Source of the DNA: a virus
IMG/VR virus record: IMGVR_UViG_3300022890_000064
Location: 1-35,884 of that record
Reading direction: 5' to 3' (one strand)
Length of the DNA: 35,884 nucleotides
The translations under genes and the position numbers were made by a program. How positions within the stretch are numbered: the stretch's first letter is position 1; each line of letters opens with the position of its first letter. The notes beneath the pieces were generated by a model, which made no database searches, had not been told where the DNA came from, and saw only the letters and a program-made list of their open reading frames with translations. Shown in pieces: positions 3,135 through 18,319 of this stretch.

Positions 3135-5051
3135 ATGTCAACAGAACTTGCTGGAACATATGAAGATCCGAAGCTTCTTTGGATGCTTGAAGAGCTGGAG
3201 AAGGTTAAGTACGGACAGGCAGGTTCGACGTTGGTCTCCACAAAGTACCCAAAAGATCTTAAAGGGAATTTAAGCTATCGGAGTAAAGTCCTTGCTAAGG
3301 CAAAAGTGGACCCGGAATATCGAAGTCAAGTCAAAGCGTTGTTCTTCAAAGATCCAGTCTTTGCATTTAACACTTTTTTCTTCACCCTCGATACTCGCAA
3401 ACGACCTTTCCATAACCAACCTTTTTGTACTTACGCTTATCAAGACATTCTTATACAGATCATAGTCTACTGCATAGATAACAAGTTAGATCTTCCGATT
3501 TTGAAGTCCAGAGACATGGGCTTGTCGTGGATCTTGATGCTCGTAGCTGAGTGGATGTGGCTTAATCCTGATGGCGGAGCCGACTTCCTCTTTGGTTCTA
3601 GAATTGAGACTTATGTAGACAAGAAAGGTGATCCTAGGGCGCTCTTTGAGAAGGCCCGTTATTGCCTCTATAAGCTTCCTTCTTGGCTCAGACCGAAGGG
3701 CTTTTCAAAGAATAAACACGACAATTCAATGAGGATTATAAATCCTGAAGCAGGGACAGCCCTCACTGGTGAGACATCGAATCCTAACTTCTCTACAGGT
3801 GGCCGTTATGCTGCCGTCTTCTATGATGAGTTTGCAAAGTGGCTTGAAGATGTTCCAGCTTGGACTGCCGGAGGCGATGCTACACCTTGCAGGATAGCTA
3901 ACTCAACACCGTTTGGCGCAGCAGGTCAGTTCTATGATCTCACCACCGGAGATAATCCCGTTGCCTCTATACATTGGACCTTACATCCTGAGAAGTCTTA
4001 CGGAGCTTACTGTTTTTATCCGAAAGAAGAAGATCCAGTTGATGAATTGATAGGAAAGGTTAGAAGTCCTTGGTATGATCGGGAGTGTGTGAGGCGGCAA
4101 GGTAAAGGCATGTCGGCTAAGGAAGTAGCACAAGAACTTGACATGGATTTCATTGGAGCAGGTGCGCTGGTCTTCGATGGTTCTGCCCTCACAAGGACGA
4201 AGGCACTCCTAAAGAGTAAGAAGCGTCCAATCGGTTACTATTCTCTTGACCTTCAGCTTATGCAGCTTGACAAAGTTCTTAAACCTCGCGACAATGAATA
4301 CCACCTTTGTGTCTTTGAAGATCTCGACAAGTCTACCTGCTATACGATGGGTGTAGATGTTGTTGAAGGTCTGGAGCAAGGTGATAACGCTGTTGTGAAG
4401 TTGATGAATCGTAAGACCGGAGATCTCGCTGCTTCTTACTATGGGCGTATAGACGAAGTTCTTCTTGCACGTATAGTAGGGATCATCGCTAAGACCTATG
4501 CTTTTGAACACAAAACCCGGAGGATGACGCGGATCATAAGTCCGTGGATCGGTATAGAAACTAATGGCCCAGGACTCGCAACTTTTGATCTCTGTGCTCT
4601 GGCTCAAGTTCCGAATCTGTTCATGATGCCGAAGTATGATGCCACGACAGACACAGAGAGTGTTTCCAAAGGATGGAAGACCACGACTATCAGTCGCAAT
4701 GTTCTTGTCTCCACTGTGCGTACATGGCTCCAAGAAGGTGAAGGTTTCGTCGATAAGAGAGCAGCCAAGGAATTTGTGACTTTCGTTAGGAGCAAAAGTG
4801 GGAAGCCAGAGGCTAAGGCCGGGTGTAATGACGATGAAGTCATCGCCTGGGGCATAGCTCTCCAGATTCATGAACAAGTTCCGATGGAGGAGGTTATTGA
4901 AGATGGTGCGTTGATGGAAAGTGGACTTCCGGCAGAGATGTTTGGGCCTTATGTTCCTTCAGATGTTCCAACACTCTACGAGCGAGGACTTGCTTCAATA
5001 GCTGCTAAGAAGCAGAACGGTGGTCAGAAAGGGATAGGCTTTGTGATATGA
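3135..5051 (+). CDS. terL: Terminase large subunit (packaging ATPase/nuclease)
   Basis: This is the motor that threads DNA through the portal and cuts it. All key motifs are present in order. A deviant Walker A KSRDMGLSW lies at about residues 124-132, Walker B AAVFYDEFA at 226-234 with catalytic Asp-Glu, and a coupling motif ANSTPFG near 255-261. The RNase H-like nuclease follows, with acidic residues in GVDVV (about 408), IGIETNG (about 475) and CNDDEVIAW (about 566). The 638 aa length is slightly long for the family, mainly through its N-terminal part. It follows terS directly, and its stop overlaps a possible 27-codon frame. A long antisense frame at 4209-4877 is only a shadow. Confidence 0.97.
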   Translation: MSTELAGTYEDPKLLWMLEELEKVKYGQAGSTLVSTKYPKDLKGNLSYRSKVLAKAKVDPEYRSQVKALFFKDPVFAFNTFFFTLDTRKRPFHNQPFCTYAYQDILIQIIVYCIDNKLDLPILKSRDMGLSWILMLVAEWMWLNPDGGADFLFGSRIETYVDKKGDPRALFEKARYCLYKLPSWLRPKGFSKNKHDNSMRIINPEAGTALTGETSNPNFSTGGRYAAVFYDEFAKWLEDVPAWTAGGDATPCRIANSTPFGAAGQFYDLTTGDNPVASIHWTLHPEKSYGAYCFYPKEEDPVDELIGKVRSPWYDRECVRRQGKGMSAKEVAQELDMDFIGAGALVFDGSALTRTKALLKSKKRPIGYYSLDLQLMQLDKVLKPRDNEYHLCVFEDLDKSTCYTMGVDVVEGLEQGDNAVVKLMNRKTGDLAASYYGRIDEVLLARIVGIIAKTYAFEHKTRRMTRIISPWIGIETNGPGLATFDLCALAQVPNLFMMPKYDATTDTESVSKGWKTTTISRNVLVSTVRTWLQEGEGFVDKRAAKEFVTFVRSKSGKPEAKAGCNDDEVIAWGIALQIHEQVPMEEVIEDGALMESGLPAEMFGPYVPSDVPTLYERGLASIAAKKQNGGQKGIGFVI

Positions 5052-5419: not shown

Positions 5420-5514
5420 AGAAGGTTCTTTTTGTTGTTAGTTCTGTGTTCTTTCTGTTGGTCTTGTACCTCTATATAAGGATAACAAAAGTGGTGATAT
5501 GGGTTCGAAAATAG
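5416..5514 (+). CDS. Possible 32-aa single-span membrane peptide
   Basis: A GTG overlapping the previous stop (GTGA) opens a 32-codon frame starting VKKVLFVVSSVFFLLVLYLY, a Lys-Lys start plus a hydrophobic stretch of about 17 residues, then a basic tail. It looks like a small membrane protein or an uncleaved signal anchor. It overlaps the next gene (ATG at 5499) by 16 bases in another frame, where it sits exactly like the export leaders of the genes from 6391 onward. It may be a micro-protein, a frame-shifted leader of the 5499 gene, or chance. Confidence 0.42.
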   Translation: MKKVLFVVSSVFFLLVLYLYIRITKVVIWVRK

Positions 5515-6389
5515 GGTTCATAATAATTGAAGAAGTGGATGGTGCGCCGACTGCTGCTGTCTATAAACTTAAAGTCACAAATGATATGCTGACTGACAAT
5601 GGTGATGGATCAGCTACGATAGATTTGGGAGGTGCGCTTGGAAGCAAAACAATCAAAGCTATGTTCTTTGCAACAATTAGCAGTGGAACAACGTCCGGTA
5701 CGATTACAAAGCCAGCAGGGACGAATGCGACACTTATCATGGATGAGTGGGGGACTTCAACGGATGCTATTCTTTCGACTATGGAGAATGGGAAGCCCAC
5801 GTTTGTCTCGCCGAGAGACTCATCAGGTGCTGTTATCACTACTACGTTTAACACGTCGGGAGACTATGCTTTCTCTGCTACTCCTAGTCCTGCTGCTGAC
5901 CATGCTCTTGTCTTCGTCTATACTGCGGGACTTGGTGACTTTCTTGTAGCAGAGACTCTCGGAGAGAGTGAGCTTGTTCCTGAAGACAGCACAATGATTA
6001 TTCCTACCACAGATCATACGGCCGGTGATGGATCGGCAAAGATAAGCCATGCGGTTGGTGAAACTGTAGTTTTTGGGCAGATCGGAATATTTAGTGGCGC
6101 TGACTTGGAATATATGCTTGCAGATGCAGACGCATCAACCAGCTTGTTGGAATGTGTAATGTTTATAGAAGGTAAGGGCAACGGTGAAGTTTGTGAAATG
6201 GTTACAAAAGGATTTGTAATGGATGAATCATGGAGTCTTACCCCAGGTGAGCCAATTTACGCCAGTACAACAGCAGGGGCAATAACACAGACCCCACCAT
6301 CAACAGGGGTGCAAGAGTATCTTGGTTATGCAGTTAGAACAAATATTATATATTTTAAACCATCACCGATAACTTACAGGACAAACTAA
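5499..6389 (+). CDS. Fibre/decoration protein without signal peptide (296 aa)
   Basis: The start MGSKIGFIIIEEVDGAPTAA followed by LKVTNDMLTDNG is a module I associate with phage fibre or head-fibre N-termini. It matches the start of the mature protein from 11491-13155 at roughly half of 30 positions. The middle is Thr/Ser/Ala-rich beta sequence. The C-terminal third (TPGEPIYASTTAGAITQTPP, then EYLGYAVRTNIIYFKPSP) has the look of a small capsid- or fibre-associated beta barrel. No signal peptide is in frame, although the hydrophobic frame at 5416-5514 ends just inside it. The likely role is an adsorption or virion-surface protein. Confidence 0.7.
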   Translation: MGSKIGFIIIEEVDGAPTAAVYKLKVTNDMLTDNGDGSATIDLGGALGSKTIKAMFFATISSGTTSGTITKPAGTNATLIMDEWGTSTDAILSTMENGKPTFVSPRDSSGAVITTTFNTSGDYAFSATPSPAADHALVFVYTAGLGDFLVAETLGESELVPEDSTMIIPTTDHTAGDGSAKISHAVGETVVFGQIGIFSGADLEYMLADADASTSLLECVMFIEGKGNGEVCEMVTKGFVMDESWSLTPGEPIYASTTAGAITQTPPSTGVQEYLGYAVRTNIIYFKPSPITYRTN

Positions 6390-6390
6390 T

Positions 6391-7224
6391 ATGAAACGAT
6401 TTTTGATATTTTTGATATTTTTAATTTTGCTTCCTTTGGATGCCTTTGCGCTCCATACCATGACCTCTGATAATACAAATGCAACTTATTGTTATGTTGT
6501 CGGAGATGGGTATTCGCTTAGATTTGATAAAACAACATATATGCTTAATTATGCTCAAATTAGAGAAGGAGCAAACGGGTCATTAATTAGGTTTAACACT
6601 TTGTCATTACATAATGGTGCAGACCCTTTTTCAATTGGGTATGGTGATAGAACGCTCACAGTTACGGAAACTAACGATAGTCGAGTTGTCATTACTATGG
6701 TCGGAGGGCTTTATGATTCTTCACAGAATCAACTCAGCACTCATGTAGTTACCGAAATTTATACTTGCTATCCTGATAGATTTACATATTGGCTATCAAT
6801 TGATGTTGTTACTTCTGATATAGTCATTACGAGCAATTCTGTTTATAATCGTATGGGTGGTATCCTTGCAGCACAAGCCGCAATCACCGGGGAAGCTGTT
6901 ATTTATGAAGGATCGGGTTCAGAGTCAACCGCTTCTGATGATACAGATTACAACACCGCAGATTATCTCGCAATTACTTCAGATGAGTGTAATTTTCTTA
7001 TTTCGAATCTTCTCTGTGATGGGACGTTACAGCTGAGATATGACCTTTCCGGTACAAATATGATTTTAAACGTCAGGATGTCGGGAACACTGACAGCCGG
7101 AATCACTTACGACCATGTTAATGTTATTTGGGTTGATCATGAAGATAGGGACGATACGCAACTTTACGACCTTGAAGCTGACAGAATAATCATAGGAAAT
7201 CAGAATGCCGATGATAGTATTTAG
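6391..7224 (+). CDS. Exported beta-rich protein with Sec signal peptide (277 aa)
   Basis: The N-terminus is a classic signal peptide: MKRFLIFLIFLILLPLDAFA, with cleavage predicted after residue 20. The mature part is beta-rich, with long alternating strands and at least four Cys (in TYCYV, YTCYP, DECNF, LLCDG) that could form disulfides after export. The pattern loosely recalls the beta-supersandwich domains of polysaccharide-active enzymes, but I see no catalytic motif and do not claim an activity. The AGGA ribosome site nine bases before the ATG supports this start and thus the leader. Its last 20 bases overlap the start of the next exported gene. Confidence 0.78.
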   Translation: MKRFLIFLIFLILLPLDAFALHTMTSDNTNATYCYVVGDGYSLRFDKTTYMLNYAQIREGANGSLIRFNTLSLHNGADPFSIGYGDRTLTVTETNDSRVVITMVGGLYDSSQNQLSTHVVTEIYTCYPDRFTYWLSIDVVTSDIVITSNSVYNRMGGILAAQAAITGEAVIYEGSGSESTASDDTDYNTADYLAITSDECNFLISNLLCDGTLQLRYDLSGTNMILNVRMSGTLTAGITYDHVNVIWVDHEDRDDTQLYDLEADRIIIGNQNADDSI

Positions 7225-10200
7225 ATATCTCTTAATATTTTTACTGTTTGCCCTTCCTGTTCATGCTGGAATCACGCAGGGAACGGCACAGACAGCCTTG
7301 TCAGATCCACTTTCAATCGGTTCTGAAGGGCTTACGAGTGATGGTGCTTGGCATATTGCAATAGACAGTAGTGCAGTTATTGTTGATTGGGCAACAGCTC
7401 AGAAACAACCGACTCTGTATATTTCCGGTTGCGGAAGCGAAACACCAGTTTTTTATATTGGTTCTACTTTACAGGTGGATGGCACAGATTACCAAGCTGA
7501 AGATTTGGGGAGTGGGGATTGGTTATTTTCTCAGACTTCAAACGCCGCAGTTAATGACATTTGGACTATTGCCATAACCCCAAACACAATAACAACAGGG
7601 ACTCCGGTTATTTTTCAAACAGATCCCATAAGCCTTGGAACTGAGGGGAGGGCCAGTGATGGTGCTTTCCATATCACGCCGGAATCTAATTCAATCGTTG
7701 TAAATTGGAGCGATACCAGAAAAGTTCCGATAATTGTTGTGCATGGCGAGTATGGCATTCGGTCATTAAAAATTGATTCAACATACGCTGTTCGTGGAAC
7801 CGGATATCAAGCCACAAATTTGGGATCTAACAAATGGATGGTATCTCAAGCTGGTAATGTCACTAATTCAACTACCTGGGAAATCACCACTTTTGATAAT
7901 GGCGATCAAACCGTTTCTTTGAGCGCATCCCCGACAATCAACTCAACTCCTGATGTAAATATCTCAGCAGAGATCGACACGGTATCACACGCGAATGCCT
8001 ATAACTATCCATTCCAGCGTAATTTTTTATGTGATGGTTCCGGCTGCACTTACTATTATTACGACGGAACCGGAACAGACGATGCGGTCAGGTATGTAGC
8101 ATTCTCGACAGACGATTACGCCATGACTCCCAAGGATATCATGGTTGATAAAGACGATACGGCAAGGCAGATCATTGGAAACTATGAAATTGCCGGTGCG
8201 GTAGGGTGGGGTACATATTTAAGACAAGGGCTTTATAATGCCTCTGACAACGAAGCTTTTGAGGTTTGGAGAGCAGATACAGACGATAACACGCTTGCTA
8301 ATCGTGATGATACTTACGGTCAACTCAGAGGCGATGTTTTCAACACTGAAAACTTTGATACATATCCTTCCCTTGCAATAGACAATCAATCAGCACCATA
8401 CGGTTATATTGCCGCAAATACGGGATCGGCCATTGAAGTTTTGGCGATGGATGGTAGTAATTATGCCTCCTGGGAAGCTTCTGCAACAGTTATCAGGGCA
8501 ACAACAACCGGCGCAGGTTGCATGGTTGGGTTTCAATCATATGATATGGGTTGTGTTTATTCTGATGGTACGGATTTATTTTTTAAATTTTTTGATAAAT
8601 CAGCCGGAACATGGGGAAGCGAAGAGACTGTATCGGCAGATTTAAAATCTGAAACTGCTTTTACTGCTATCACAACATCTCGATATACTTTGGTTGTATT
8701 CTGGATTGATGGAACGGACAACGATTTATATTACAGAACCAGAACACAAGCAGGATCATGGGGAACCGCAACCGTATTTGCTTCTGACATGCAAACCGGA
8801 ATTGATAACGGATTTACAGCTTCTTCTCTTTTCAACGATGATTCGGAACCTGGGGCCGTTGTTGGATATTGGGACGGAACTGATATAAAAATAAAGGAGT
8901 GGATAGAAGATACGGGAACCCTTGGAACCGGAACCCTTGGAAGTGCAACGGAATTTGTTTCAGGCCCGACCTTGCAAGACACTTACTTTACATCGAACGC
9001 CAAAACATACACTGATTTCGCAGTAGTTTACAGAACATCTGACAATACTATTCGGGTACGGGCAAAAGAATACGATCTGACAGAAACCATTAGTGACCTT
9101 GGAGGTATAGAAACCAACCACTTTGGCAGGGTTGGGGATTACATGGGGTATACAAAACCTGTTACAAATGGGACTCTCACAGTTGTTCCTTCTATTGGTT
9201 TTGGACATATCCCCCATGCTGCTATTTATGATCATGATAAAGAACGATTTGTCAAAGATTGGCAACAGATTGATATCAGATATTGGGATTTGCACAATAA
9301 AGCTTTTTTTCAACTTGGGAATGATGGGTATGTCTGGTTTATTTCTGGTGGGCGTAACAATGTAGGCGAGTCTCATTATATCTATATAAAAAAGAGTCCG
9401 TATCTTCTTGCAGATCCACGCTTTGATATTGATGTGGATGATTGGACAGATGTTTCACCTACACTTGATGACGGTAATGCAGACAGCGTTTCTGACTCAT
9501 GTACTCGCGGATATAAAGAAATTTTCATTGATGATAATGGGGTTCTATTCCTTTTCACGGAAAGCAGTTATTCAATCCATGTACGGGCTTATGACGGTAC
9601 TACATGGTATGATCCTGTTACAGTTGCGACTTCTCCGGAGTTAGGTATTTATTGGTCGGGAAACGGGCTTGCAATCGGCAACGAAACCGAATCGCAACAA
9701 ACCCTTCATGTTTTTAATTCATATTCTCTTGCTGCTTTGGGCGCTGGTTATGCGTCTGATGTTGGGTACTGTAAATTAGTTTATCAGGGGGATGGTACTT
9801 TTTTGGCTTATCGTTCAGACGGTGCAAGTCTTACCCTTCCGCTTTCTCCATCTAATAATGATATCGTTGTCCGGTGCGATGATGCCTATTCGTATTCTGA
9901 AAGAGCCAATTCAACGGCTTATGCTGAAGATGATGTGAGGTATTGTGACGGTCACTATTACATCTGCACCACGGCAGGAACGAGCGCAGGAAGCCCTCCG
10001 ACATTCGATACAGACCATTATGCCACAACCACAGATGGTACGGCGGTATGGACTGAGCAAGGTCATTACACGACTGATTACATTCCTGTTGTCAACGGTT
10101 CAGCAGATATTCTCAGTTCGGCAACACCGTCCCTGATTCAGAAATTTTCGAACTCAAGTGGAGTTTTTCAGGGTTGGAGTTTTTATAAGTATTCCAGTGA

Positions 10201-10555
10201 TGAATGGTATCAAAACGAGTATACCACTGATTCAGATGATGCCTACTTGGACAATCTTAAAATCTATAGCTCTGGCTTAATATTCGCTGTTGGTATGGGG
10301 GCTGGTGGAAACAACATAACCTACCTTGTATCACATGACGAGGGTGTAACGTGGTCTGCTCAAAGTAACGGATTGTCTGGATTATGGGGTGATCAAACCA
10401 CGATGAATAATTTTGGTGGAAACTCAGTAGTAATTTTGTCTTACAAAAACGTGACTCCTTTTTTGTATAAGTATCAAATGGGAGTCCTTAGCTTAACCAC
10501 GCCTATTAGGGTAATGGGTACAGGAAATGCTGTATATGGATTTATATTACAATAA
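7205..10555 (+). CDS. Large exported BNR/Asp-box propeller-type adhesin (1116 aa)
   Basis: A Sec signal peptide (residues 1-21, ending LPVHA) precedes two tandem homologous beta domains at about residues 32-122 and 139-228. Each holds a SIGSEG/SLGTEG start, an SDGA.HI strand and a DYQAEDLG/GYQATNLG loop. A long repetitive region follows that resembles BNR-type propellers (YPSLAIDNQ; DGYVWFISGGRNN). A domain at about 895-952 (HYYICTTAGTSAGSPP, then DGTAVWTEQG) resembles small carbohydrate-binding modules of phage fibres. A canonical Asp-box, SHDEGVTW, lies near 1043. Glycan binding or a sialidase-like fold is likely; I cannot identify the catalytic residues of a true sialidase. It overlaps the preceding gene, indicating coupled translation. 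Confidence 0.83.
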   Translation: MPMIVFRYLLIFLLFALPVHAGITQGTAQTALSDPLSIGSEGLTSDGAWHIAIDSSAVIVDWATAQKQPTLYISGCGSETPVFYIGSTLQVDGTDYQAEDLGSGDWLFSQTSNAAVNDIWTIAITPNTITTGTPVIFQTDPISLGTEGRASDGAFHITPESNSIVVNWSDTRKVPIIVVHGEYGIRSLKIDSTYAVRGTGYQATNLGSNKWMVSQAGNVTNSTTWEITTFDNGDQTVSLSASPTINSTPDVNISAEIDTVSHANAYNYPFQRNFLCDGSGCTYYYYDGTGTDDAVRYVAFSTDDYAMTPKDIMVDKDDTARQIIGNYEIAGAVGWGTYLRQGLYNASDNEAFEVWRADTDDNTLANRDDTYGQLRGDVFNTENFDTYPSLAIDNQSAPYGYIAANTGSAIEVLAMDGSNYASWEASATVIRATTTGAGCMVGFQSYDMGCVYSDGTDLFFKFFDKSAGTWGSEETVSADLKSETAFTAITTSRYTLVVFWIDGTDNDLYYRTRTQAGSWGTATVFASDMQTGIDNGFTASSLFNDDSEPGAVVGYWDGTDIKIKEWIEDTGTLGTGTLGSATEFVSGPTLQDTYFTSNAKTYTDFAVVYRTSDNTIRVRAKEYDLTETISDLGGIETNHFGRVGDYMGYTKPVTNGTLTVVPSIGFGHIPHAAIYDHDKERFVKDWQQIDIRYWDLHNKAFFQLGNDGYVWFISGGRNNVGESHYIYIKKSPYLLADPRFDIDVDDWTDVSPTLDDGNADSVSDSCTRGYKEIFIDDNGVLFLFTESSYSIHVRAYDGTTWYDPVTVATSPELGIYWSGNGLAIGNETESQQTLHVFNSYSLAALGAGYASDVGYCKLVYQGDGTFLAYRSDGASLTLPLSPSNNDIVVRCDDAYSYSERANSTAYAEDDVRYCDGHYYICTTAGTSAGSPPTFDTDHYATTTDGTAVWTEQGHYTTDYIPVVNGSADILSSATPSLIQKFSNSSGVFQGWSFYKYSSDEWYQNEYTTDSDDAYLDNLKIYSSGLIFAVGMGAGGNNITYLVSHDEGVTWSAQSNGLSGLWGDQTTMNNFGGNSVVILSYKNVTPFLYKYQMGVLSLTTPIRVMGTGNAVYGFILQ

Positions 10556-10565
10556 GGAAACGATT

Positions 10566-10967
10566 ATGAAAAAAACAAGTGCAGTATTATTCTTTTTGGT
10601 TTTACTTTTAGTATCCACGCTCTGTTTTGCAGAATATGAAGGAACGTATGAGATTGATAAATATATAACCTTTGCAGCCCCGGCGCATAACCCTAATACA
10701 TCGTTTGATGTGGATCTCGATGACCCTCCAACTTATCGGATTTACGAAGACGATACTGAAACTCCCGTTGCTACTGGATCAATGATCTTATTTGATGATG
10801 CCAATACTACTGGATATTATAAAAAGAGATTGCAGTTATCAGCAGCAAATGGATTTAGTGTAGATCATGATTACCATATTCGTATTTCTGGTTTACTTAC
10901 CGGCACAGCGTCTAAAGTAATTAAATTTAAAATCGAAACCAAGGCGAAACTTGGCCCGTTTGAATAG
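10566..10967 (+). CDS. Small phage virion-type protein with signal peptide (133 aa)
   Basis: The ATG at 10566 follows AAGGAAACGATT and opens with a signal peptide, MKKTSAVLFF onward to CFA, with cleavage after about residue 22. An upstream ATG at 10527 would overlap the previous gene and bury the leader. The mature part has the signature DPPTYRIYEDDTETPVATGS and a closing GFSVDHDYHIRISG, a pattern I know from small beta-sandwich proteins common in phage virion gene sets, where no leader is expected. CFA is preceded by a Cys, but the sequence before it does not fit a lipobox. The role is unknown; a fibre or adhesin partner is likely. Confidence 0.76.
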   Translation: MKKTSAVLFFLVLLLVSTLCFAEYEGTYEIDKYITFAAPAHNPNTSFDVDLDDPPTYRIYEDDTETPVATGSMILFDDANTTGYYKKRLQLSAANGFSVDHDYHIRISGLLTGTASKVIKFKIETKAKLGPFE

Positions 10968-10975
10968 GAGTAAAA

Positions 10976-11455
10976 ATGAAAAGGTTTTTCACAACAATAT
11001 TGACATTTTTCTTTTTGACTGTTTCGGCTTTCGGAACATCAAGCATGTTCACGAATCGGTATCTCTCTGATTTACATAAAGGGGGAGTTGATTGGTCAAA
11101 CGATTCATTTAAAATCATCTTAATGCAGAGCAGTTATACGTTTGATTATGACACTCATGACACATATTCAGACGTTTCCGCTTCGGAATTGGCAACTAAT
11201 TATGGATACACTCAAAACACTAAAACGCTCGCAAGTGTCACAGTCACAGAAAGCAGTAGCGGTGATTTTTCACTCACGTTTGCTGATGTGACTTGGACTG
11301 CAAGTGGGGGAGAAATTGGGCCAGTATCATGCGCTCTAATCATAGATGATACCCACGCCTCTGATATTGTTGTCGGGTGTATTTGGTTTGGGGCAAATAG
11401 GACAGCAGCCGATGGGACGGAATTTGCGATTCGAGGTAATTCGTTAGGTCGGTAA
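10976..11455 (+). CDS. Small phage virion-type protein with signal peptide (159 aa)
   Basis: An AGGAGTAAAA ribosome site precedes the ATG. The N-terminus MKRFFTTILTFFFLTVSAFG is signal-peptide-like, with cleavage near residue 18-20. The mature part, with TNRYLSDLHKGGVDWSNDSF, LMQSSYTFDYDTHDTYSDVS and VTWTASGGEIGP, belongs to a beta-rich family I have seen in many phage structural gene sets, usually without a leader. The final residues AIRGNSLGR suggest a folded C-terminal strand. The function is unknown, though association with fibres or capsid is the usual guess. The leader makes it part of the exported block. Confidence 0.76.
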   Translation: MKRFFTTILTFFFLTVSAFGTSSMFTNRYLSDLHKGGVDWSNDSFKIILMQSSYTFDYDTHDTYSDVSASELATNYGYTQNTKTLASVTVTESSSGDFSLTFADVTWTASGGEIGPVSCALIIDDTHASDIVVGCIWFGANRTAADGTEFAIRGNSLGR

Positions 11456-11490
11456 TGACAGTACATACAAACCCTAACGGGAGAGGAAAT

Positions 11491-13155
11491 ATGAAAAGTT
11501 TTATAGGAATTTTGACAGTAATTTTAGTTTTATCGTTTACCGGAAATGCTTCTGCTAGGTCCGCCATTGGACTCATAAAAGTAACTGAAGCTGATGGAAG
11601 TCCTTCTGCTTATGTTAATGAGATCGTTGTACCTAATGATACACTCTCAACAAGTGGAGCTGTTGGAACACAGACTCTTCCGGCGACACTAGGAACACTT
11701 AATGCTATTACCTACTCAGCTAATACACAGTCTCTTCTTGCTGCTGCTGATTATGCAGCTATGAAAGTTCTTCTTGGTCTTGCTGATGTTATACAGACTC
11801 CATTGAACGTGGATAATGAAGATGCGGTGACTCTTGACGCTGGCGATGTTGTGTTCCTGGCGATGACCGGAACAGGAGAGCCAACGAACTTCACGATGAC
11901 TGAGACTAATGCTTCTGAGGGACAGATTGGGATTCTCTTTAATGCAGGAACTACGAGTCTTAAAACCGGAGATGATGCAGGGGTTCTTGAATTGGATGGT
12001 AATACTATAATTCCCCCAGGGAAATTCTTGATAATTAAATATGTCACAGATCGTTACTACGGCTATGGTGGTTACGGACTCAGCGAAGTGTGGAGTGCAA
12101 TCAATCTTGCTCCAAGTGGAATCGGTCAATTTAATAAGAAAATAATAAATTCAGCCGTAGATTATAATCTAATTCCAACTGAAATGGATAGTACTATTTT
12201 TATGACAGCAGGGGGAAGGGTCAATATTCCTGATAGTTCACTAATCTTGTCAGGCGCTTTTATAAGATGTTTTAAAATAGGCACAGCAGATACATATGTA
12301 AGATCACTTAATGCTTCTCATGTTATCACTAACTATGAAGGAACCGCTTTTACTGCTGCTGATATGGTTAAGCTTGATGATGCAAGTGGGAGTATGGTCG
12401 AGCTGACTTACCGAACTACTAATGACTGGAGAGTTACGGATCGAGAAGGGGTTCCAGCAGACGGAGGCGTACCAGGAGGAGGGGCTGCAACATATATCGC
12501 TGACGGTAATGCCATTGCTGCTTACCTTTTTGAGAATGATCTAACAGATGAGACAGCAAATAGTAATGATCTGACTGATTCTGGTACTATAACTTACGAG
12601 ACTGCTACACCAGCACCGCCAAATGGAACTTACTCTGCTCTTTTTGTGGCAGCAAGTTCTCAATACGGATATTCTGCAAGTGCTGATTTCGATTTCACGA
12701 CTACTTTTTCAATATGTGGACGGGTGTACTTTAACAGTGATGATTATTCACCTATAGCTGCAAAAGGTACATCAGTCGATAGCGGTTATTTAATCCGTAG
12801 GCATGGCGGTAATAACGCATTTCAATTTCAAATATCAAGTGATGGTACAGCTACAGAAAGTCCACAAACCGCTACAGACTCAGCACCTACAGGAGAATGG
12901 ATTTTCTTTGCTATTACTAATACTGGTACAGCAATGAAATTTTATATTGCCGGTTTACCTCACGATGGCGGGTCGTTCCCATCCGGTTCTTATGCTTACT
13001 CAGGTGGAGTCAATGACACCGTAGGTAATTTCATGGTAGGAAGAAGTGAGGATATAGGTAGTTATATGGATGGTAATCTTAAAGATCTCTATGTAACTAA
13101 TGACGTTCTTAGTGACGCTGAGATTTATGATATAGAGATAAATGGATTACAATAA
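11491..13155 (+). CDS. Exported fibre with LamG/ConA-like C-terminus (554 aa)
   Basis: The start at 11491 follows GGGAGAGGAAAT and yields a signal peptide (residues 1-22, ending GNASA). Directly after it, RSAIGLIKVTEADGSPSA repeats the N-terminal module of the fibre gene at 5499. A fibre-typical AADYAAMKVLLGL segment lies near residue 85, then a beta-rich shaft. From about residue 330 a LamG/concanavalin-like lectin domain follows (IAAYLFENDLTDETANSNDL; GEWIFFAITNTG; YMDGNLKDLYVTNDVLSDAE), typical for carbohydrate binding. An ATG at 11455 in the same frame has no matching ribosome site and would displace the leader. It is probably an adhesin. Why it is exported is unclear. Confidence 0.85.
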   Translation: MKSFIGILTVILVLSFTGNASARSAIGLIKVTEADGSPSAYVNEIVVPNDTLSTSGAVGTQTLPATLGTLNAITYSANTQSLLAAADYAAMKVLLGLADVIQTPLNVDNEDAVTLDAGDVVFLAMTGTGEPTNFTMTETNASEGQIGILFNAGTTSLKTGDDAGVLELDGNTIIPPGKFLIIKYVTDRYYGYGGYGLSEVWSAINLAPSGIGQFNKKIINSAVDYNLIPTEMDSTIFMTAGGRVNIPDSSLILSGAFIRCFKIGTADTYVRSLNASHVITNYEGTAFTAADMVKLDDASGSMVELTYRTTNDWRVTDREGVPADGGVPGGGAATYIADGNAIAAYLFENDLTDETANSNDLTDSGTITYETATPAPPNGTYSALFVAASSQYGYSASADFDFTTTFSICGRVYFNSDDYSPIAAKGTSVDSGYLIRRHGGNNAFQFQISSDGTATESPQTATDSAPTGEWIFFAITNTGTAMKFYIAGLPHDGGSFPSGSYAYSGGVNDTVGNFMVGRSEDIGSYMDGNLKDLYVTNDVLSDAEIYDIEINGLQ

Positions 13156-13156
13156 T

Positions 13157-15037
13157 ATGAAAAAGTTACTCATAATATTAAGCTTCCTGCTGATTCCTCT
13201 CCAAGCTTTTGCAGCAGCGTACTATGTTAGTACAAGTGGTTCTGGTACAGGAGTTGGCTCAGAGGGAGATCCCTTTACTATGGCTCAAGCTAATAGTAAG
13301 TCGGACTATGTTGCAGGGGATGATATTTATTTTAAAAGAGGCGACACATTCCCAGGTGTGATATTTACGGTTGGTCATTCTGGAGTTGATACTGATAACT
13401 ACGCTATTATTGGGGCATACGGAACAGGAGATAAACCGATTTTCGATGGGGAGTATGTATTTCCACTGGATAGAAATGATGGGCTAATTGAGTCTCACTA
13501 CCAAGAGTATATCTTAATAACAAATATAAGTCTTAAGGATTCACTAGGACATCACATGGTGGTGGATAACGCGAGTTACATAAACACCGTTGATGTTGAC
13601 TGTAATAAAGCTTTTAATGCTGGGATAAAATACTATAATATCGACCACGGTGTGATCCAAGGATGCACTGTGACGGATACAGGAAGAAAAAGAGTTGAAG
13701 ACTTAGGATCGGATTACCCGGCAGCAATCGCTGTCGTGAGCTATAGTAATAATGTCACTGTTTCAAAGAACACTTCATATCATAACCACGGTGAGGGAAT
13801 AGGATTCTTTAATTATAACGATACTGGTTTAGTTGCTGAAGATAATATTTTGTATGGGAACAAGGTTGGTATTTATGTCGGATCGACAAAGGGTGTGATT
13901 ATCCGTAGAAACCTTGTTTATGGCACAGGAAATGCAACTTACAATCTTGATACAAATCCGTCAGATGGAATTGGCTTGAATAATGAAAACAGTAATGATC
14001 CTTATACTGAGGACGTACAAATCTATGGTAACTTTATAGCTTATTGTTACAGAGGAATATTTATAAATTCAGCGAATGTAGCTGGCTACGTTAAGGATGT
14101 TAAGGTTTATAATAACGGAGTAGTCTTCTGTGATATCAATTTCTATTCTTACGTTGGTCTTGGTTCAAGTCAATATGTTAATAATGAAGTTAAGAATAAT
14201 TACTTCTATGGTTTTACTAATGTGCAAGCACAAGTGCCTTATCATAATGATGGGATTGACTTTGATTACAATCTGTGGAGTTCAGAGCCAGTAGCTAATG
14301 CTAAGGGAACGAATGATCTCTCTTATGCTGCGCCTGGGTTGGTAGAAACAACTTCAGTATGGTGGAGAGATAAAGACGGTGATGATCTCACTATTCAGGA
14401 TTTTGCCCTTCAAGATGGCTCAGCAGCAGATAATACAGGTTTAGATTTAGGGGACACTTGGGATGATGTTACCGATGTTGAGCAGTCACTATCGTATCCA
14501 ACAACCACCACAACAGTAAGCCAAGATACTTTCGGTTGGGACATAGGGCCGGATGCCTTGACGGGTGGTGCAGTTGCCTCCGGGACCATAAGCCCTGTTG
14601 GATATCTACCAGAAACAAATATCGTAGACGGTGGGAAAACAATAATTCTTACACTTACAAATGCAATATGGCATGTGGATATTGGAACCGACTGTTCGCA
14701 GACCACAGACCTACTTGCAGGAATAACAAGCTCAGGAACAGAAACCTATGGATGGACTAATGTTGTAGCTTTAACCTATGCTCACGTTGTCAGAACGAGT
14801 ACTACGGTTGTAACAATCACACTTCCCGCTTTTGCAACATATGACATAAGCCTATCAGAATTAATCTCAATTATCATACCTGCAACAGCAACTAATGCAG
14901 GGGCAGCTATAACGGCAAGCGGAACGATCTATGTTTCCTTTATTGAAGCAGATGTGTTTCGTAAAGAGATATTACATAGTTCAGATCCTACTAAAGTAGT
15001 AGGGTATTCATCGACCGGAAAAGATATTAATTACTAA
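13157..15037 (+). CDS. Exported parallel beta-helix protein with Ig-like C-terminus (626 aa)
   Basis: I choose 13157 over the ATG at 13142 because it starts exactly at the signal peptide (MKKLLIILSFLLIPLQAFA, cleavage after 19). The ribosome site is weak for both, so coupling to the preceding gene is likely. Residues 20 to about 430 show the start (AYYVSTSGSGTGVGSEGDPF) and many short strand-turn repeats (VTVSKNTSYHNHGEGIGFF; GVIIRRNLVYGTGN) of a right-handed parallel beta-helix, the fold of many polysaccharide lyases, hydrolases and tailspikes. About residues 490-595 form an Ig-like domain that is common in environmental phage adhesins (DGGKTIILTLTNAIW; TTVVTITLPAFATYDIS). Glycan cleavage or binding is likely; catalytic residues cannot be assigned. 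Confidence 0.84.
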   Translation: MKKLLIILSFLLIPLQAFAAAYYVSTSGSGTGVGSEGDPFTMAQANSKSDYVAGDDIYFKRGDTFPGVIFTVGHSGVDTDNYAIIGAYGTGDKPIFDGEYVFPLDRNDGLIESHYQEYILITNISLKDSLGHHMVVDNASYINTVDVDCNKAFNAGIKYYNIDHGVIQGCTVTDTGRKRVEDLGSDYPAAIAVVSYSNNVTVSKNTSYHNHGEGIGFFNYNDTGLVAEDNILYGNKVGIYVGSTKGVIIRRNLVYGTGNATYNLDTNPSDGIGLNNENSNDPYTEDVQIYGNFIAYCYRGIFINSANVAGYVKDVKVYNNGVVFCDINFYSYVGLGSSQYVNNEVKNNYFYGFTNVQAQVPYHNDGIDFDYNLWSSEPVANAKGTNDLSYAAPGLVETTSVWWRDKDGDDLTIQDFALQDGSAADNTGLDLGDTWDDVTDVEQSLSYPTTTTTVSQDTFGWDIGPDALTGGAVASGTISPVGYLPETNIVDGGKTIILTLTNAIWHVDIGTDCSQTTDLLAGITSSGTETYGWTNVVALTYAHVVRTSTTVVTITLPAFATYDISLSELISIIIPATATNAGAAITASGTIYVSFIEADVFRKEILHSSDPTKVVGYSSTGKDINY

Positions 15038-15052
15038 CAAGTGGAGTTTCTT

Positions 15053-15310
15053 ATGTCAGAAGATCTTAAAACTTTGTGCATAGAACATGGAAAGACACTG
15101 GAAAGGGTAGTTGTTCTGATAGAAGAAGGGAATAAGCAGCATCTTACTATCTTCGATAAACTTAAAGCTATTCCTAAACTAGATAAAAGAATAGTTGTTC
15201 TTGAGACCAAAGAAGCAACACAACCTTCAGCTAAGAGAATAATGACTTTTGCTTCTATTGCTGGTGGGATGACCACTGCAATGATGTGGATTGCAAAGAG
15301 GTTGCTATGA
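15053..15310 (+). CDS. XhlA-like coiled-coil/TM protein, holin candidate (85 aa)
   Basis: The ATG at 15053 has GTGGAG seven bases upstream and is preferred over the GTG at 15041. About 60 residues of charged, heptad-like helix (LKTLCIEHGKTLERVVVLIE and following) end in one C-terminal membrane segment (IMTFASIAGGMTTAMMWIAK). This layout matches the XhlA-type lysis helpers and small phage membrane-associated proteins. It overlaps the endolysin gene downstream (ATGA), which supports a lysis role. A true pore-forming holin usually has more membrane segments, so it may be an accessory to the holin candidate at 15738. Confidence 0.68.
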   Translation: MSEDLKTLCIEHGKTLERVVVLIEEGNKQHLTIFDKLKAIPKLDKRIVVLETKEATQPSAKRIMTFASIAGGMTTAMMWIAKRLL

Positions 15311-15723
15311 CAGCTTATGAATGGTCACAGATAGTCCATTTTAAGCCAACACTGACAGGTGATAAATTCGGTGATCCTGTGAGGATGGATTTCGAACTTA
15401 TGCAGACGCTTGATGCTTTCAGAACTTACGAAGACAAGCCAGTTATTGTTCATTGCGGCTATGAAGATCGAAAGACTGGTTGGCATCCAAAGGGCAAAGC
15501 CATTGATCTTCATGTTGTGGGTGTGAGTGTTATGAACCAGTTTTTAGCAGCACAGCGTTTTCCAGGCTTCACTGGCATAGGAATCTATTCTTGGTGGAAC
15601 AGTCCTGGGTTACATCTTGATAACAGACCGAGAACAAAGAATCAACCCCGAAGTTTTTGGGGATCACCGTCACCAGGGAAATACGTTCCTGTGACAAGAG
15701 AGTTTTTATATAGAACACTTTAA
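15307..15723 (+). CDS. Endolysin, M15-type zinc peptidase (138 aa)
   Basis: The predicted role is to cut peptide cross-links of peptidoglycan at the end of infection. The zinc-site signature of M15/VanY-type peptidases is visible: HPKGKAID at residues 60-67 (His60, Asp67), then GLHLD near 101-105 (His103). It has the compact single-domain size of phage M15 peptidases, with no separate binding domain and no signal peptide, so it needs a holin for access. The start is the ATG at 15307 that overlaps the previous stop. The ATT at 15286 further upstream is less plausible. It sits between two membrane-protein genes, as expected for a lysis cassette. Confidence 0.85.
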   Translation: MTAYEWSQIVHFKPTLTGDKFGDPVRMDFELMQTLDAFRTYEDKPVIVHCGYEDRKTGWHPKGKAIDLHVVGVSVMNQFLAAQRFPGFTGIGIYSWWNSPGLHLDNRPRTKNQPRSFWGSPSPGKYVPVTREFLYRTL

Positions 15724-15737
15724 AGAAGGAGAAGACA

Positions 15738-16112
15738 ATGGGACTTGAACTATTAATTCCGATACTCGGAACAATACTGACAATGGCTACATCGTGGGGG
15801 CTGGCTGAACTGAGCAAATGGGTGGCTAGTCGAACAAAGAATGAAAACGCAGCAGCAGCGATGAAGCATATTGCTTTGACAACTGAGACTGTTGTGAAAG
15901 GTCTTACGCAATCCGTGGCGAAGTACTACAAAGAACAAAACGTAGATGGTAAGCTTAACAAAGACCAGAGGGATGCTTTGAAGAACATGGCTATTGCTAA
16001 GGTCAAGGCTCAGGTTCCTTTGAGTGTTAAAGCTCTCTCTGCGTTGGCTATTGACTCCTTAGATGACCTGATTTCATCTCAAGTTGAAAGAGTCATACAT
16101 GATGGGAAGTAA
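15738..16112 (+). CDS. Holin candidate of the phage LL-H type (124 aa)
   Basis: An AAGGAGAAGACA ribosome site precedes the ATG. The N-terminus is one membrane segment (LELLIPILGTILTMATSWGL), followed by a long, charged helical cytoplasmic part with Lys/Asp-rich turns and a C-terminal VERVIHDGK. This layout resembles the holin family typified by Lactobacillus phage LL-H (Phage_holin_6_1). It directly follows the endolysin. It could instead be a small virion or membrane anchor protein, but the position favours lysis. A new promoter lies just after the gene. Confidence 0.68.
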   Translation: MGLELLIPILGTILTMATSWGLAELSKWVASRTKNENAAAAMKHIALTTETVVKGLTQSVAKYYKEQNVDGKLNKDQRDALKNMAIAKVKAQVPLSVKALSALAIDSLDDLISSQVERVIHDGK

Positions 16113-16197: not shown

Positions 16198-16404
16198 ATG
16201 TTTGCAAAGACAAAGTTAATAAAGCTACTACTTGCAGAAGTTGAGCGTAAAGATAAGATCATTGAAAGATTAACTAGCAGGATAGTCATGATGGACTTTG
16301 GGACACCGAAAGAGAAGATAGAAGTAAGTGGTTCTTCCGATGACGGAATCCCTATTGATCTTGAGTCCATGATAGGAGAAGTTATCCCTTATGCGCCTGA
16401 ATAA
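16198..16404 (+). CDS. Small hypothetical protein before portal (68 aa)
   Basis: This is the first gene after the promoter, with an AAGGAG ribosome site ten bases before the ATG. The first half is a basic amphipathic helix (KLIKLLLAEVERKDKIIERL), the second half is short and acidic. It overlaps the portal gene start by 14 bases. I do not recognise it. A short coiled-coil assembly helper or a portal-linked chaperone would fit size and position, but there is no direct evidence. Confidence 0.68.
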   Translation: MFAKTKLIKLLLAEVERKDKIIERLTSRIVMMDFGTPKEKIEVSGSSDDGIPIDLESMIGEVIPYAPE

Positions 16405-18319
16405 GATACCTAAAGCACCAGAAAGTTCACGTCCTGCGGTGAAGAAGCCAGAAGGTAAGGATGATCTGTGGAGTGAGGTCAAGAACAAGGTCGATGATGG
16501 ACTTGACACACGAAGACCATTCGAATGCTTCTGGATTTTGAACCTCGCGTTCTTACATGGGCGACAGAACGTCTTCTTTAACAGTGCAGCTCATATGCTT
16601 CAACAAGTTCTCCCGACTAAGAACAAATATAAGGTCGTTGATAATCAGCTTTTTCCAAAGTGGAGACGGCAGGTTAACGACCTCATAAGGGCAAGACCTT
16701 CGATGTCCGTGGTTCCTAATTCAGATGAAGATTCTGATATTCAAGCAGCTAATGCCGGGGATAAGTTTCTTAAGCACTTCTGGCGTAATGGTAAGATGGC
16801 TAAGAAGACTCGAAAGTTAGCTGCTTGGGTCCATTCTTGTGGGAGTGGATTTTTAGTGGATAGTTGGAATAAGAAGCTCGGACCAGAGGCAGTTGAAGAA
16901 GGCTCCGGTAAGATCGTTTACCAAGGTGATGCCGACGTTAGTGTCTGGAGTCCCTTTGAGATCTTAGTTCCGTCAGCAGCGCAGGATGACTGTGACGATG
17001 GTGATTGGATTATCAAAAGAAGATGGCATACGTTGGAATGGATTTCTGCTTATGCTAAGAGAGGCTCCGAAGTACCGGCAGAAGACAGGTTGACTCATAC
17101 CTTCGAGCATGTCTACCTTCTTGATCAAGTCGGTGGTGTAGGAAGTGGAAAAGAAGAAGGGGCTTTTGTGGTAGATCTTTACATGAAGCCTTGTAAGAAA
17201 TATCCAAAAGGAAAGTTTATCTCTGCTGCTAACGGGGTTATTCTCAGCAGCAGAGATTATCCACACTTGTACTACCCGATTGAACAGTTCAAAGATATCG
17301 AAATGCCTGGACTTTTCTGGGGTGTTGCCACTATGGGATTTGGAATCATTCTTCAGAAGATTTGGAATGACACACTCAGTGATGTCTACGAATACAATAG
17401 TACAATGGCAAGAGGGAAGTGGTTAGCTCCGAGAAATTGTCACATGGGAGAAGGGCCGGATAGTTCTCATGGTGAAGTCGTAGAGTATGATGTTGTTCTA
17501 GGAAGAAAGCCTGAACATCTTACGCTTAAAGGACTCACTGCGACATACAATGATATTCTCGGTATTATCGCCAAGTCATTGAACGATCTGTTCTCACAAC
17601 ATGAGGTCTCCCAAGGAACGAACAAGAGTGATCTCAGAAGTGGGAGCATGGTAGGTCTGCTGCTTGAGCAAGATGCGATGGGTGGAATCGGAACTCATGC
17701 TATTCATGAAGAGAGTCTTGAAGCAACGATGACCAGGGTTCTTAGACGTGTCCAAGGTGGATATACTGCTCAAAGAATGATTAAGATTCGTGGACAAGAA
17801 GGTGACTTTGAAGTTCTTGCTTTTCAGGGAGCTGATCTTAAGGATAACACCGATGTTCATATAGTTAAACAAAGTACAATCTCAGAGTCAAGAGTCGCTA
17901 AGGAACAGCAAGTTCTTGCTAAGTACGAAGCCGGTCTCTACGGTGATCCAGCGAATCCAGAAGTCCGCCGTCATGTCATGAAGATGTTGGAAGATGCAGT
18001 TGTTAAAGATATCTATTCAGATGACATCCTTGACGAGTCTTACGCAAGATGGGAGAATAAGATTATCGCAGCAGAAGAACAAGTGATTCATCTTGTTAAT
18101 ATGTATGACAACCATAGTATTCATATAAAGGAACATACCCACTACAGGAAGTCTTTGGAGTATCAAAAGGAGAAGCTTGATCCTGAGAAGCAACAAGAGT
18201 GGACAGCTAAAGATCTCAGATTTACTGAACATGAGAAGTTGCATCAAGAATTTCTCCAAGATCAGATTAATGCTCAGTTAGAACGACAAGCAACGATGGA
18301 AGGCAAAGGGAGAAAATAA
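16391..18319 (+). CDS. Portal protein, P22-like (642 aa)
   Basis: The portal is the ring at the capsid vertex through which DNA enters and leaves and to which the tail joins. Length and pattern fit the P22-like portal family: an N-terminal region with FHG-type contacts (LAFLHGRQNVFF), a VVDNQLFPKWRRQVNDLIRA segment, a beta-rich wing with VWSPFEILVPSA, a helical stretch with SQGTNKSDLRSGSMVGLLLE near residues 408-427, and a long C-terminal helical region (LEYQKEKLDPEKQQEWTAKD) that could extend a barrel. It lies upstream of scaffold and capsid genes, the standard order. The C-terminal end shares one base with the next start codon (TAATG). Confidence 0.92.
   Translation: MRLNKIPKAPESSRPAVKKPEGKDDLWSEVKNKVDDGLDTRRPFECFWILNLAFLHGRQNVFFNSAAHMLQQVLPTKNKYKVVDNQLFPKWRRQVNDLIRARPSMSVVPNSDEDSDIQAANAGDKFLKHFWRNGKMAKKTRKLAAWVHSCGSGFLVDSWNKKLGPEAVEEGSGKIVYQGDADVSVWSPFEILVPSAAQDDCDDGDWIIKRRWHTLEWISAYAKRGSEVPAEDRLTHTFEHVYLLDQVGGVGSGKEEGAFVVDLYMKPCKKYPKGKFISAANGVILSSRDYPHLYYPIEQFKDIEMPGLFWGVATMGFGIILQKIWNDTLSDVYEYNSTMARGKWLAPRNCHMGEGPDSSHGEVVEYDVVLGRKPEHLTLKGLTATYNDILGIIAKSLNDLFSQHEVSQGTNKSDLRSGSMVGLLLEQDAMGGIGTHAIHEESLEATMTRVLRRVQGGYTAQRMIKIRGQEGDFEVLAFQGADLKDNTDVHIVKQSTISESRVAKEQQVLAKYEAGLYGDPANPEVRRHVMKMLEDAVVKDIYSDDILDESYARWENKIIAAEEQVIHLVNMYDNHSIHIKEHTHYRKSLEYQKEKLDPEKQQEWTAKDLRFTEHEKLHQEFLQDQINAQLERQATMEGKGRK

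Follow-up and report, generated by a model that had tools for sequence, protein, structure and literature searches.

Consecutive fibre-type genes with Sec signal peptides form a recurring block between terminase and portal in a podovirus-like phage

The analysed stretch of DNA, hereafter the window, spans 35.9 kb and is the virus record of a podovirus-like phage. Between its terminase and portal genes, directly ahead of the lysis genes, lies a block of six consecutive genes (Table 1; genes are named by their start position). Left of the small terminase candidate (~2.6 kb), few convincing genes were found in positions 1-2650; one is located at 640-1224 on the minus strand. Lysogenic conversion was considered and dropped; no integrase was recognised among the window genes examined.

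Table 1. Features of the window, with family matches and predicted signal peptides (sequence, following residues, cut position and caller score)
Position	Strand	Feature	Evidence
3135..5051	+	Large terminase subunit; borders the cassette on the left	phrog_2/phrog_24361, E 4e-14 / 5e-16; 47% identity to L002
5144..5419	+	91-aa protein, first gene of the cassette	No signal peptide; placed where relatives have a small decoration-like gene
5499..6389	+	296-aa fibre-type protein	No signal peptide; phrog_4368 (function unknown), E 5e-8
6391..7224	+	277-aa signal-peptide protein	MKRFLIFLIFLILLPLDAFA, then LHT; cut after residue 20; score 11.2
7205..10555	+	1116-aa signal-peptide protein	MPMIVFRYLLIFLLFALPVHA, then GIT; cut after residue 21; score 10.7
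10566..10967	+	133-aa signal-peptide protein	MKKTSAVLFFLVLLLVSTLCFA, then EYE; cut after residue 22; score 9.7
10976..11455	+	159-aa phrog_644 protein with signal peptide	MKRFFTTILTFFFLTVSA, then FGT, alternatively cut between AFG and TSS; 18-20 residues; phrog_644, E 7e-18, residues 25-152
11491..13155	+	554-aa signal-peptide protein, C-terminal LamG	MKSFIGILTVILVLSFTGNASA, then RSA; cut after residue 22; score 10.6; Laminin_G_3, 3e-13
13157..15037	+	626-aa signal-peptide protein, right-handed beta-helix	MKKLLIILSFLLIPLQAFA, then AAY; cut after residue 19; score 11.8; Pfam Beta_helix, 2.5e-10
15041..16112	+	Lysis region	89-aa protein, M15-type endolysin, holin-like protein
within 15041..16112	+	89-aa lysis-region protein	Hydrophobic segment at the C-terminal end
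15286-15723	+	M15-type endolysin	phrog_894, E 2e-6
15738-16112	+	Holin-like protein	phrog_36209, E 0.003
16391..18319	+	Portal protein; borders the cassette on the right	phrog_156, E 7e-14
19390		Major capsid	Family match
23428, 24266		Tail-tube-type genes	Position and conservation only
29864		1071-aa ejection-type protein	Position and conservation only

Signal peptides were identified by a home-made set of rules that asks for a basic n-region, a hydrophobic core free of charged residues, and small residues at positions -3 and -1. The gene caller was likewise home-made, and the contigs are incomplete. As a positive control, textbook signal peptides of E. coli were entered by hand, and all 13 were recovered. 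An earlier note on this DNA had claimed Sec signal peptides for all six genes of the block. A complete Sec-type signal peptide was indeed found at the start of each, and the scores (9.7-11.8) lie in the range of the E. coli controls. The start codon of all six genes is ATG, and purine-rich ribosome sites are present for most. The ribosome site of 13157 is weak; an in-frame alternative start at 13142 would retain the hydrophobic segment. The mature parts of all six are free of membrane helices by hydropathy. The remaining window genes have no convincing signal peptide, as the earlier note had claimed for the portal, capsid, adaptor, hub and ejection genes, and only 33191 was weakly called (6.6). 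Signal peptides are also absent from 5144 and 5499, the neighbouring fibre-region genes of the same cassette. To set the background, 80 unrelated phage contigs were scored: 7 of their 1094 genes (~0.6%) reach ≥8.5, as do 15 of 5646 internal 60-mers. At the background rate, the chance of finding six or more signal peptides among 31 genes is ~4e-8, with consecutiveness left uncounted.

The mature proteins differ in what could be recognised. The parallel beta-helix in 13157 (~3e-10) and the LamG/concanavalin-like domain in 11491 were proposed in the earlier note and are supported by Pfam. The BNR-type propeller proposed for 7205 and the Ig-like domain proposed for 10566 found no Pfam match and are thus not supported. 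For 10566, there was no match among PHROGs, Pfam or phage records, and for 5144 no family match in PHROGs or Pfam. No homologue of 6391 was found in phage records or IMG/VR. Phage records held no relative of 7205, and residues 899-950 of this protein weakly match a head-decoration family (E 6e-4). When solved structures were searched by sequence, 7205, 11491 and the A4 profile gave no usable match. The same type of search linked 13157 to a lacto-N-biosidase over one weak stretch only (E 0.0026, 85 residues), and this candidate was set aside. No virion-attachment domain was recognised at the N-terminus of 13157 by Pfam or PHROGs (absence in these libraries is not proof), nor any dedicated virion-binding domain in 6391, 7205, 10566 and 13157.

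The sharpest evidence for added export signals on fibre-type proteins comes from 10976. None of 63 phrog_644 homologues sampled in 80 contigs has a signal peptide. In the homologues that were aligned (CcrColossus gp090, gp6 of the satellite MiniFlayer, podovirus ctype202 and L008; handles beginning with L denote relatives and their contigs), the start codon is at or within ~2 residues of the predicted mature N-terminus of 10976. MiniFlayer gp6 adjoins the MiniFlayer capsid gene. The closest homologue found (45% identical, E 1.7e-31) is encoded in the terminase-portal interval of a sister phage, L220; it begins near the position of the predicted mature N-terminus of 10976, and has a strong ribosome site and no signal peptide from any possible start. 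A LamG-containing protein adjoins this L220 homologue; homology with 11491 was tested and none was found. By sequence comparison, 10976 is a member of a phage-protein family, and its signal peptide is an addition.

The AlphaFold model of mature 10976 (pLDDT 89.8) had 13 phage-protein matches in BFVD at E ≤ 1e-3, one of them an annotated structural protein of Agrobacterium phage 7-7-1. Many tail-collar fibre proteins followed at weaker E-values. A fold search of the PDB gave nothing significant; the Bxb1 tail tip (probability 0.95, E 0.2) was suggestive at most. As modelled, the mature fold is virion-type and tail-collar-like.

Relatives of the window phage were obtained from scans with capsid and portal alignments, which are pattern scans and not an exhaustive search. 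The fibre-like block with export signals that the earlier note had described is, on good evidence, a genomic fact and it recurs: the same gene arrangement was found in the terminase-portal interval of the contigs L016, L022 and L201/L232. The interval of L016 has signal-peptide genes of 157, 72 and 713 aa, that of L022 has genes of 157 and 1148 aa plus a lipoprotein, and that of L201/L232 has six consecutive genes (151, 1140, 67, 1747, 346 and 565 aa; the score of the 346-aa gene is 6.7 only). The three signal-peptide genes of L217 (168, 182 and 1310 aa) are located immediately upstream of the terminase. L036 and L040 are more distant relatives (~30% capsid identity). Signal peptides are found on a 2120-aa tail fibre and on 358-aa and 496-aa proteins in L036 and its continuation L083. 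In L040, two fibre-like paralogues have differing signal peptides and an identical mature N-terminus (RDTGSRDSYRN). When the L040 fibre N-terminus was used as a scan query, it matched nothing but itself. L016 and L198 are identical in the genes compared, and so are L203 and L219.

Signal-peptide proteins of three relatives match tail families, namely phrog_4492 (tail fibre, 4e-56) in L036, phrog_5668 (tail fibre, 1e-18) in L022 and phrog_5939 (tail protein, 3e-30) in L217. The last match covers only positions 372-730 of 801 of the profile, meaning that the usual first half is absent behind the L217 signal peptide.

Two features of these contigs were observed in passing. L040:11377-12339 is homologous to L036:11394-12470; the signal peptide is N-terminal in L036. 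The L040 protein begins with a charged N-terminal domain, followed internally by a comparable hydrophobic segment that includes an AxA site. Both ends of the 50.8 kb L016 contig (L070:119-4422 and L072:4246-8549) have the same 420-aa and 832-aa genes. As repeated ends indicate long terminal repeats or a circular overlap, the true genome size of L016 is ~46 kb.

In many relatives, the interval between terminase and portal has just two or three small genes. In L220, L214/L235, L017 and L009, interval genes look structural or fibre-like and have no signal peptide. Because similar proteins without signal peptides occupy the interval of these other sisters, the signal peptide switches on and off. 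On the portal tree, at least four signal-peptide changes are needed when the window phage, L016, L022, L036 and L040 are labelled as signal-peptide phages. L016 and L017 are sisters on this tree; the L017 contig begins inside the interval, and its cassette may be incomplete. Two homologous pairs span the switch: 10976 and its L220 homologue, and the 157-aa protein of L016 (signal peptide) and a 133-aa protein of L214 (none; 6e-5). Moreover, the N-terminal domain of 5499 has a counterpart in the 2120-aa L036 fibre (14801; phmmer E 2.5e-5), where it follows a signal peptide. By permutation, signal-peptide content is clustered by phage (p 0.003; score 6.5; lysis genes included).

Most relatives have a gene of 378-599 aa after the tail-tube genes. 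It is absent in the window, L022 and L201, all of which have signal-peptide blocks, and the exported proteins may therefore be the main adhesins of these three phages. There are counterexamples: L016 has both a signal-peptide block and the post-tail gene, and L015 and L222 have neither the post-tail gene nor a visible signal-peptide block.

Other gene types were seen in the interval of relatives. Directly before the portal gene of the L214 phage lies a signal-peptide protein of 276 aa (L235:10786-11616) that, like a c-type cytochrome, has a CxxCH motif. Methyltransferase-like genes and a glycosyltransferase-like gene were noted by eye in L017:1258-3227.

The host was left unnamed. One relative, L069, is a contig of an uncultured bacterial MAG, and it may be a mis-binned virus; 7205 had no match in 195 genomes of the phylum of this MAG. 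Small lipoproteins with a lipobox adjoin the lysis genes in L022:5354-5605, L017:5174-5536 and L009:1707-2042, which suggests outer-membrane spanins and a diderm host. No lipobox lipoprotein was recognised in the window.

Given the signal peptides, the 10976 homologues without one and the signal-peptide proteins of relatives that match tail families, we consider Sec export of the six window proteins probable.

The cassette proteins resemble known systems in part. Mature 10976 and the L036, L022 and L217 proteins resemble tail-fibre and tail-collar families, from which 10976 differs by its signal peptide. No signal peptide was found in the fibre-region proteins checked in other phages. A parallel beta-helix, predicted in 13157 and in signal-peptide genes of relatives, is shared with the virion tailspike depolymerases of podoviruses, and glycans are plausible targets. 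The described virion tailspike depolymerases are tail components and are assembled in the cytosol, whereas 13157 has an export signal.

The earlier note knew of no described phage system of this form. This is nearly right: searches of the open full-text library turned up no account of an exported fibre cassette in a tailed phage. As most subscription papers and all preprints were outside this scope, the result is weak evidence of absence. Two precedents qualify the statement. Porphyromonas gingivalis phages (proposed Nixviridae) have genes with host-type Sec signal peptides, for which the host secretion route was proposed; they encode capsid proteins, spanins and five proteins of unknown function (PMC10367356). 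Signal peptides are common to both systems, but the Porphyromonas phage genes are not described as forming a fibre cassette in the terminase-portal interval (PMC10367356). The mosaic adhesive trimer (MAT) fibres of Bdellovibrio are phage-tail-fibre-like adhesins that have a signal peptide, are exported and serve in prey recognition (PMC10769870). The signal peptide is shared with the window proteins. Unlike the cassette, MAT fibres are encoded by a predatory bacterium, and many have an S74 chaperone domain, for which (S74 chaperone/protease) there was no Pfam match at E ≤ 1 in any of the window six.

We tentatively read the terminase-portal interval of this phage lineage as a swappable adhesin/fibre cassette adjoining the lysis genes; for the whole chain, up to and including virion attachment, the chance falls a little short of even. 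In the window phage and several relatives, most or all of the large fibre-type proteins in this interval have an N-terminal Sec signal peptide. We infer that the adhesins would be expressed late in infection, that the host Sec machinery would carry them across the inner membrane and that signal peptidase would cleave them. Head and tail would meanwhile assemble in the cytosol. The mature adhesins would form a pool outside the cytosol until holin and endolysin open the cell. They would then meet the particles, and adhesins with a virion-binding domain would attach to them outside the cytosol. It is possible, though somewhat doubtful, that the lineage in general exports its fibres by Sec, folds them there and loads them onto cytosol-built particles at lysis, with relatives switching between the two forms by gain or loss of the signal peptide.

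The earlier note had proposed three uses of the exported proteins: freeing progeny from matrix, blocking re-adsorption and loading fibres outside the cytosol. The evidence leans to the loading of fibres, because 10976 has a virion-type, tail-collar-like fold and signal-peptide genes in L036, L022 and L217 have matches to families of tails or tail fibres. These virion-type domains argue that at least some cassette products end up on particles. Hence, virion loading at lysis is favoured over free action. The beta-helix, LamG and L217 proteins also fit free effectors.

Free action is the best of the alternatives, although we consider it rather unlikely. The proteins would be exported and never be on virions, acting free in the periplasm and, after lysis, in the surroundings. 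There, they would bind or cut glycans and thereby release progeny from matrix, cut back or hide the receptors on debris, or keep competing phages out. LamG and beta-helix folds are often glycan-active, the nearest matches of 13157 are bacterial beta-helix proteins bearing signal peptides, with no homologue in phage records, and in L217 a tail-family match lacks its usual first half behind the signal peptide. However, the virion-type domains of 10976 and of the L036 and L022 proteins would be needless for free effectors, no catalytic residue was identified, and proteins with no outer-membrane exporter would be periplasmic until lysis.

Less probable still is that the N-termini only resemble signal peptides and are inner-membrane tethers during assembly or are cut by a phage protease at virion maturation. 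All three regions (n, h and c) are complete in the six, which score as high as the E. coli controls, and the 10976 homologues manage without the segment. PHROGs family searches recognised no prohead protease among the window genes, and fibres are not normally substrates of this protease. Nevertheless, a weak signal-peptide-like start was seen behind a strong ribosome site in a phrog_334 major head protein (E 1e-8) of the L008 contig (L087:7772-9091, minus strand). The gene next to it (L087:6775-7740, minus strand) has a weak start of this type and a strong ribosome site too. A hydrophobic N-terminus alone is therefore no proof of export. For the capsid proteins of Porphyromonas phages, the authors likewise ascribe the signal peptides to the prohead protease (PMC10367356).

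We regard it as improbable that the block consists of captured bacterial genes for secreted surface proteins, which would alter the surface of the infected cell and have no virion role. 13157 does resemble exported bacterial beta-helix proteins, and the bacterium Bdellovibrio has its own phage-like fibres, which it exports (PMC10769870). On the other hand, 10976 belongs to a phage-protein family, the block adjoins the lysis cassette in a late-gene region, and homologues without signal peptides occupy the same place in sisters.

With home-made gene and signal-peptide callers and an unfinished metagenomic record, one might suspect a chance result, misplaced start codons or a chimeric assembly, but this is very improbable and already contradicted: chance is negligible at the background rate, collinear terminase and portal genes flank the block, and the same layout is found in L016, L022 and L201/L232.

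Virions of tailed phages are held to be completed in the cytosol. Export-tagged fibre-type proteins would be an unreported use by a tailed phage, and there is a real chance that the way of assembly in this variant of phage fibre cassettes is new. If adhesins leave the cytosol first, this would imply one of two things: that assembly has a step at lysis or later, or that the phage secretes effectors with a role comparable to that of viral neuraminidase. Either outcome would bear on host range, biofilm release and competition between phages. As signal peptides are easy to screen, the claim is testable across viromes. At one and the same genomic location, some homologues have a signal peptide and others lack it; this is a natural experiment on the purpose of export.
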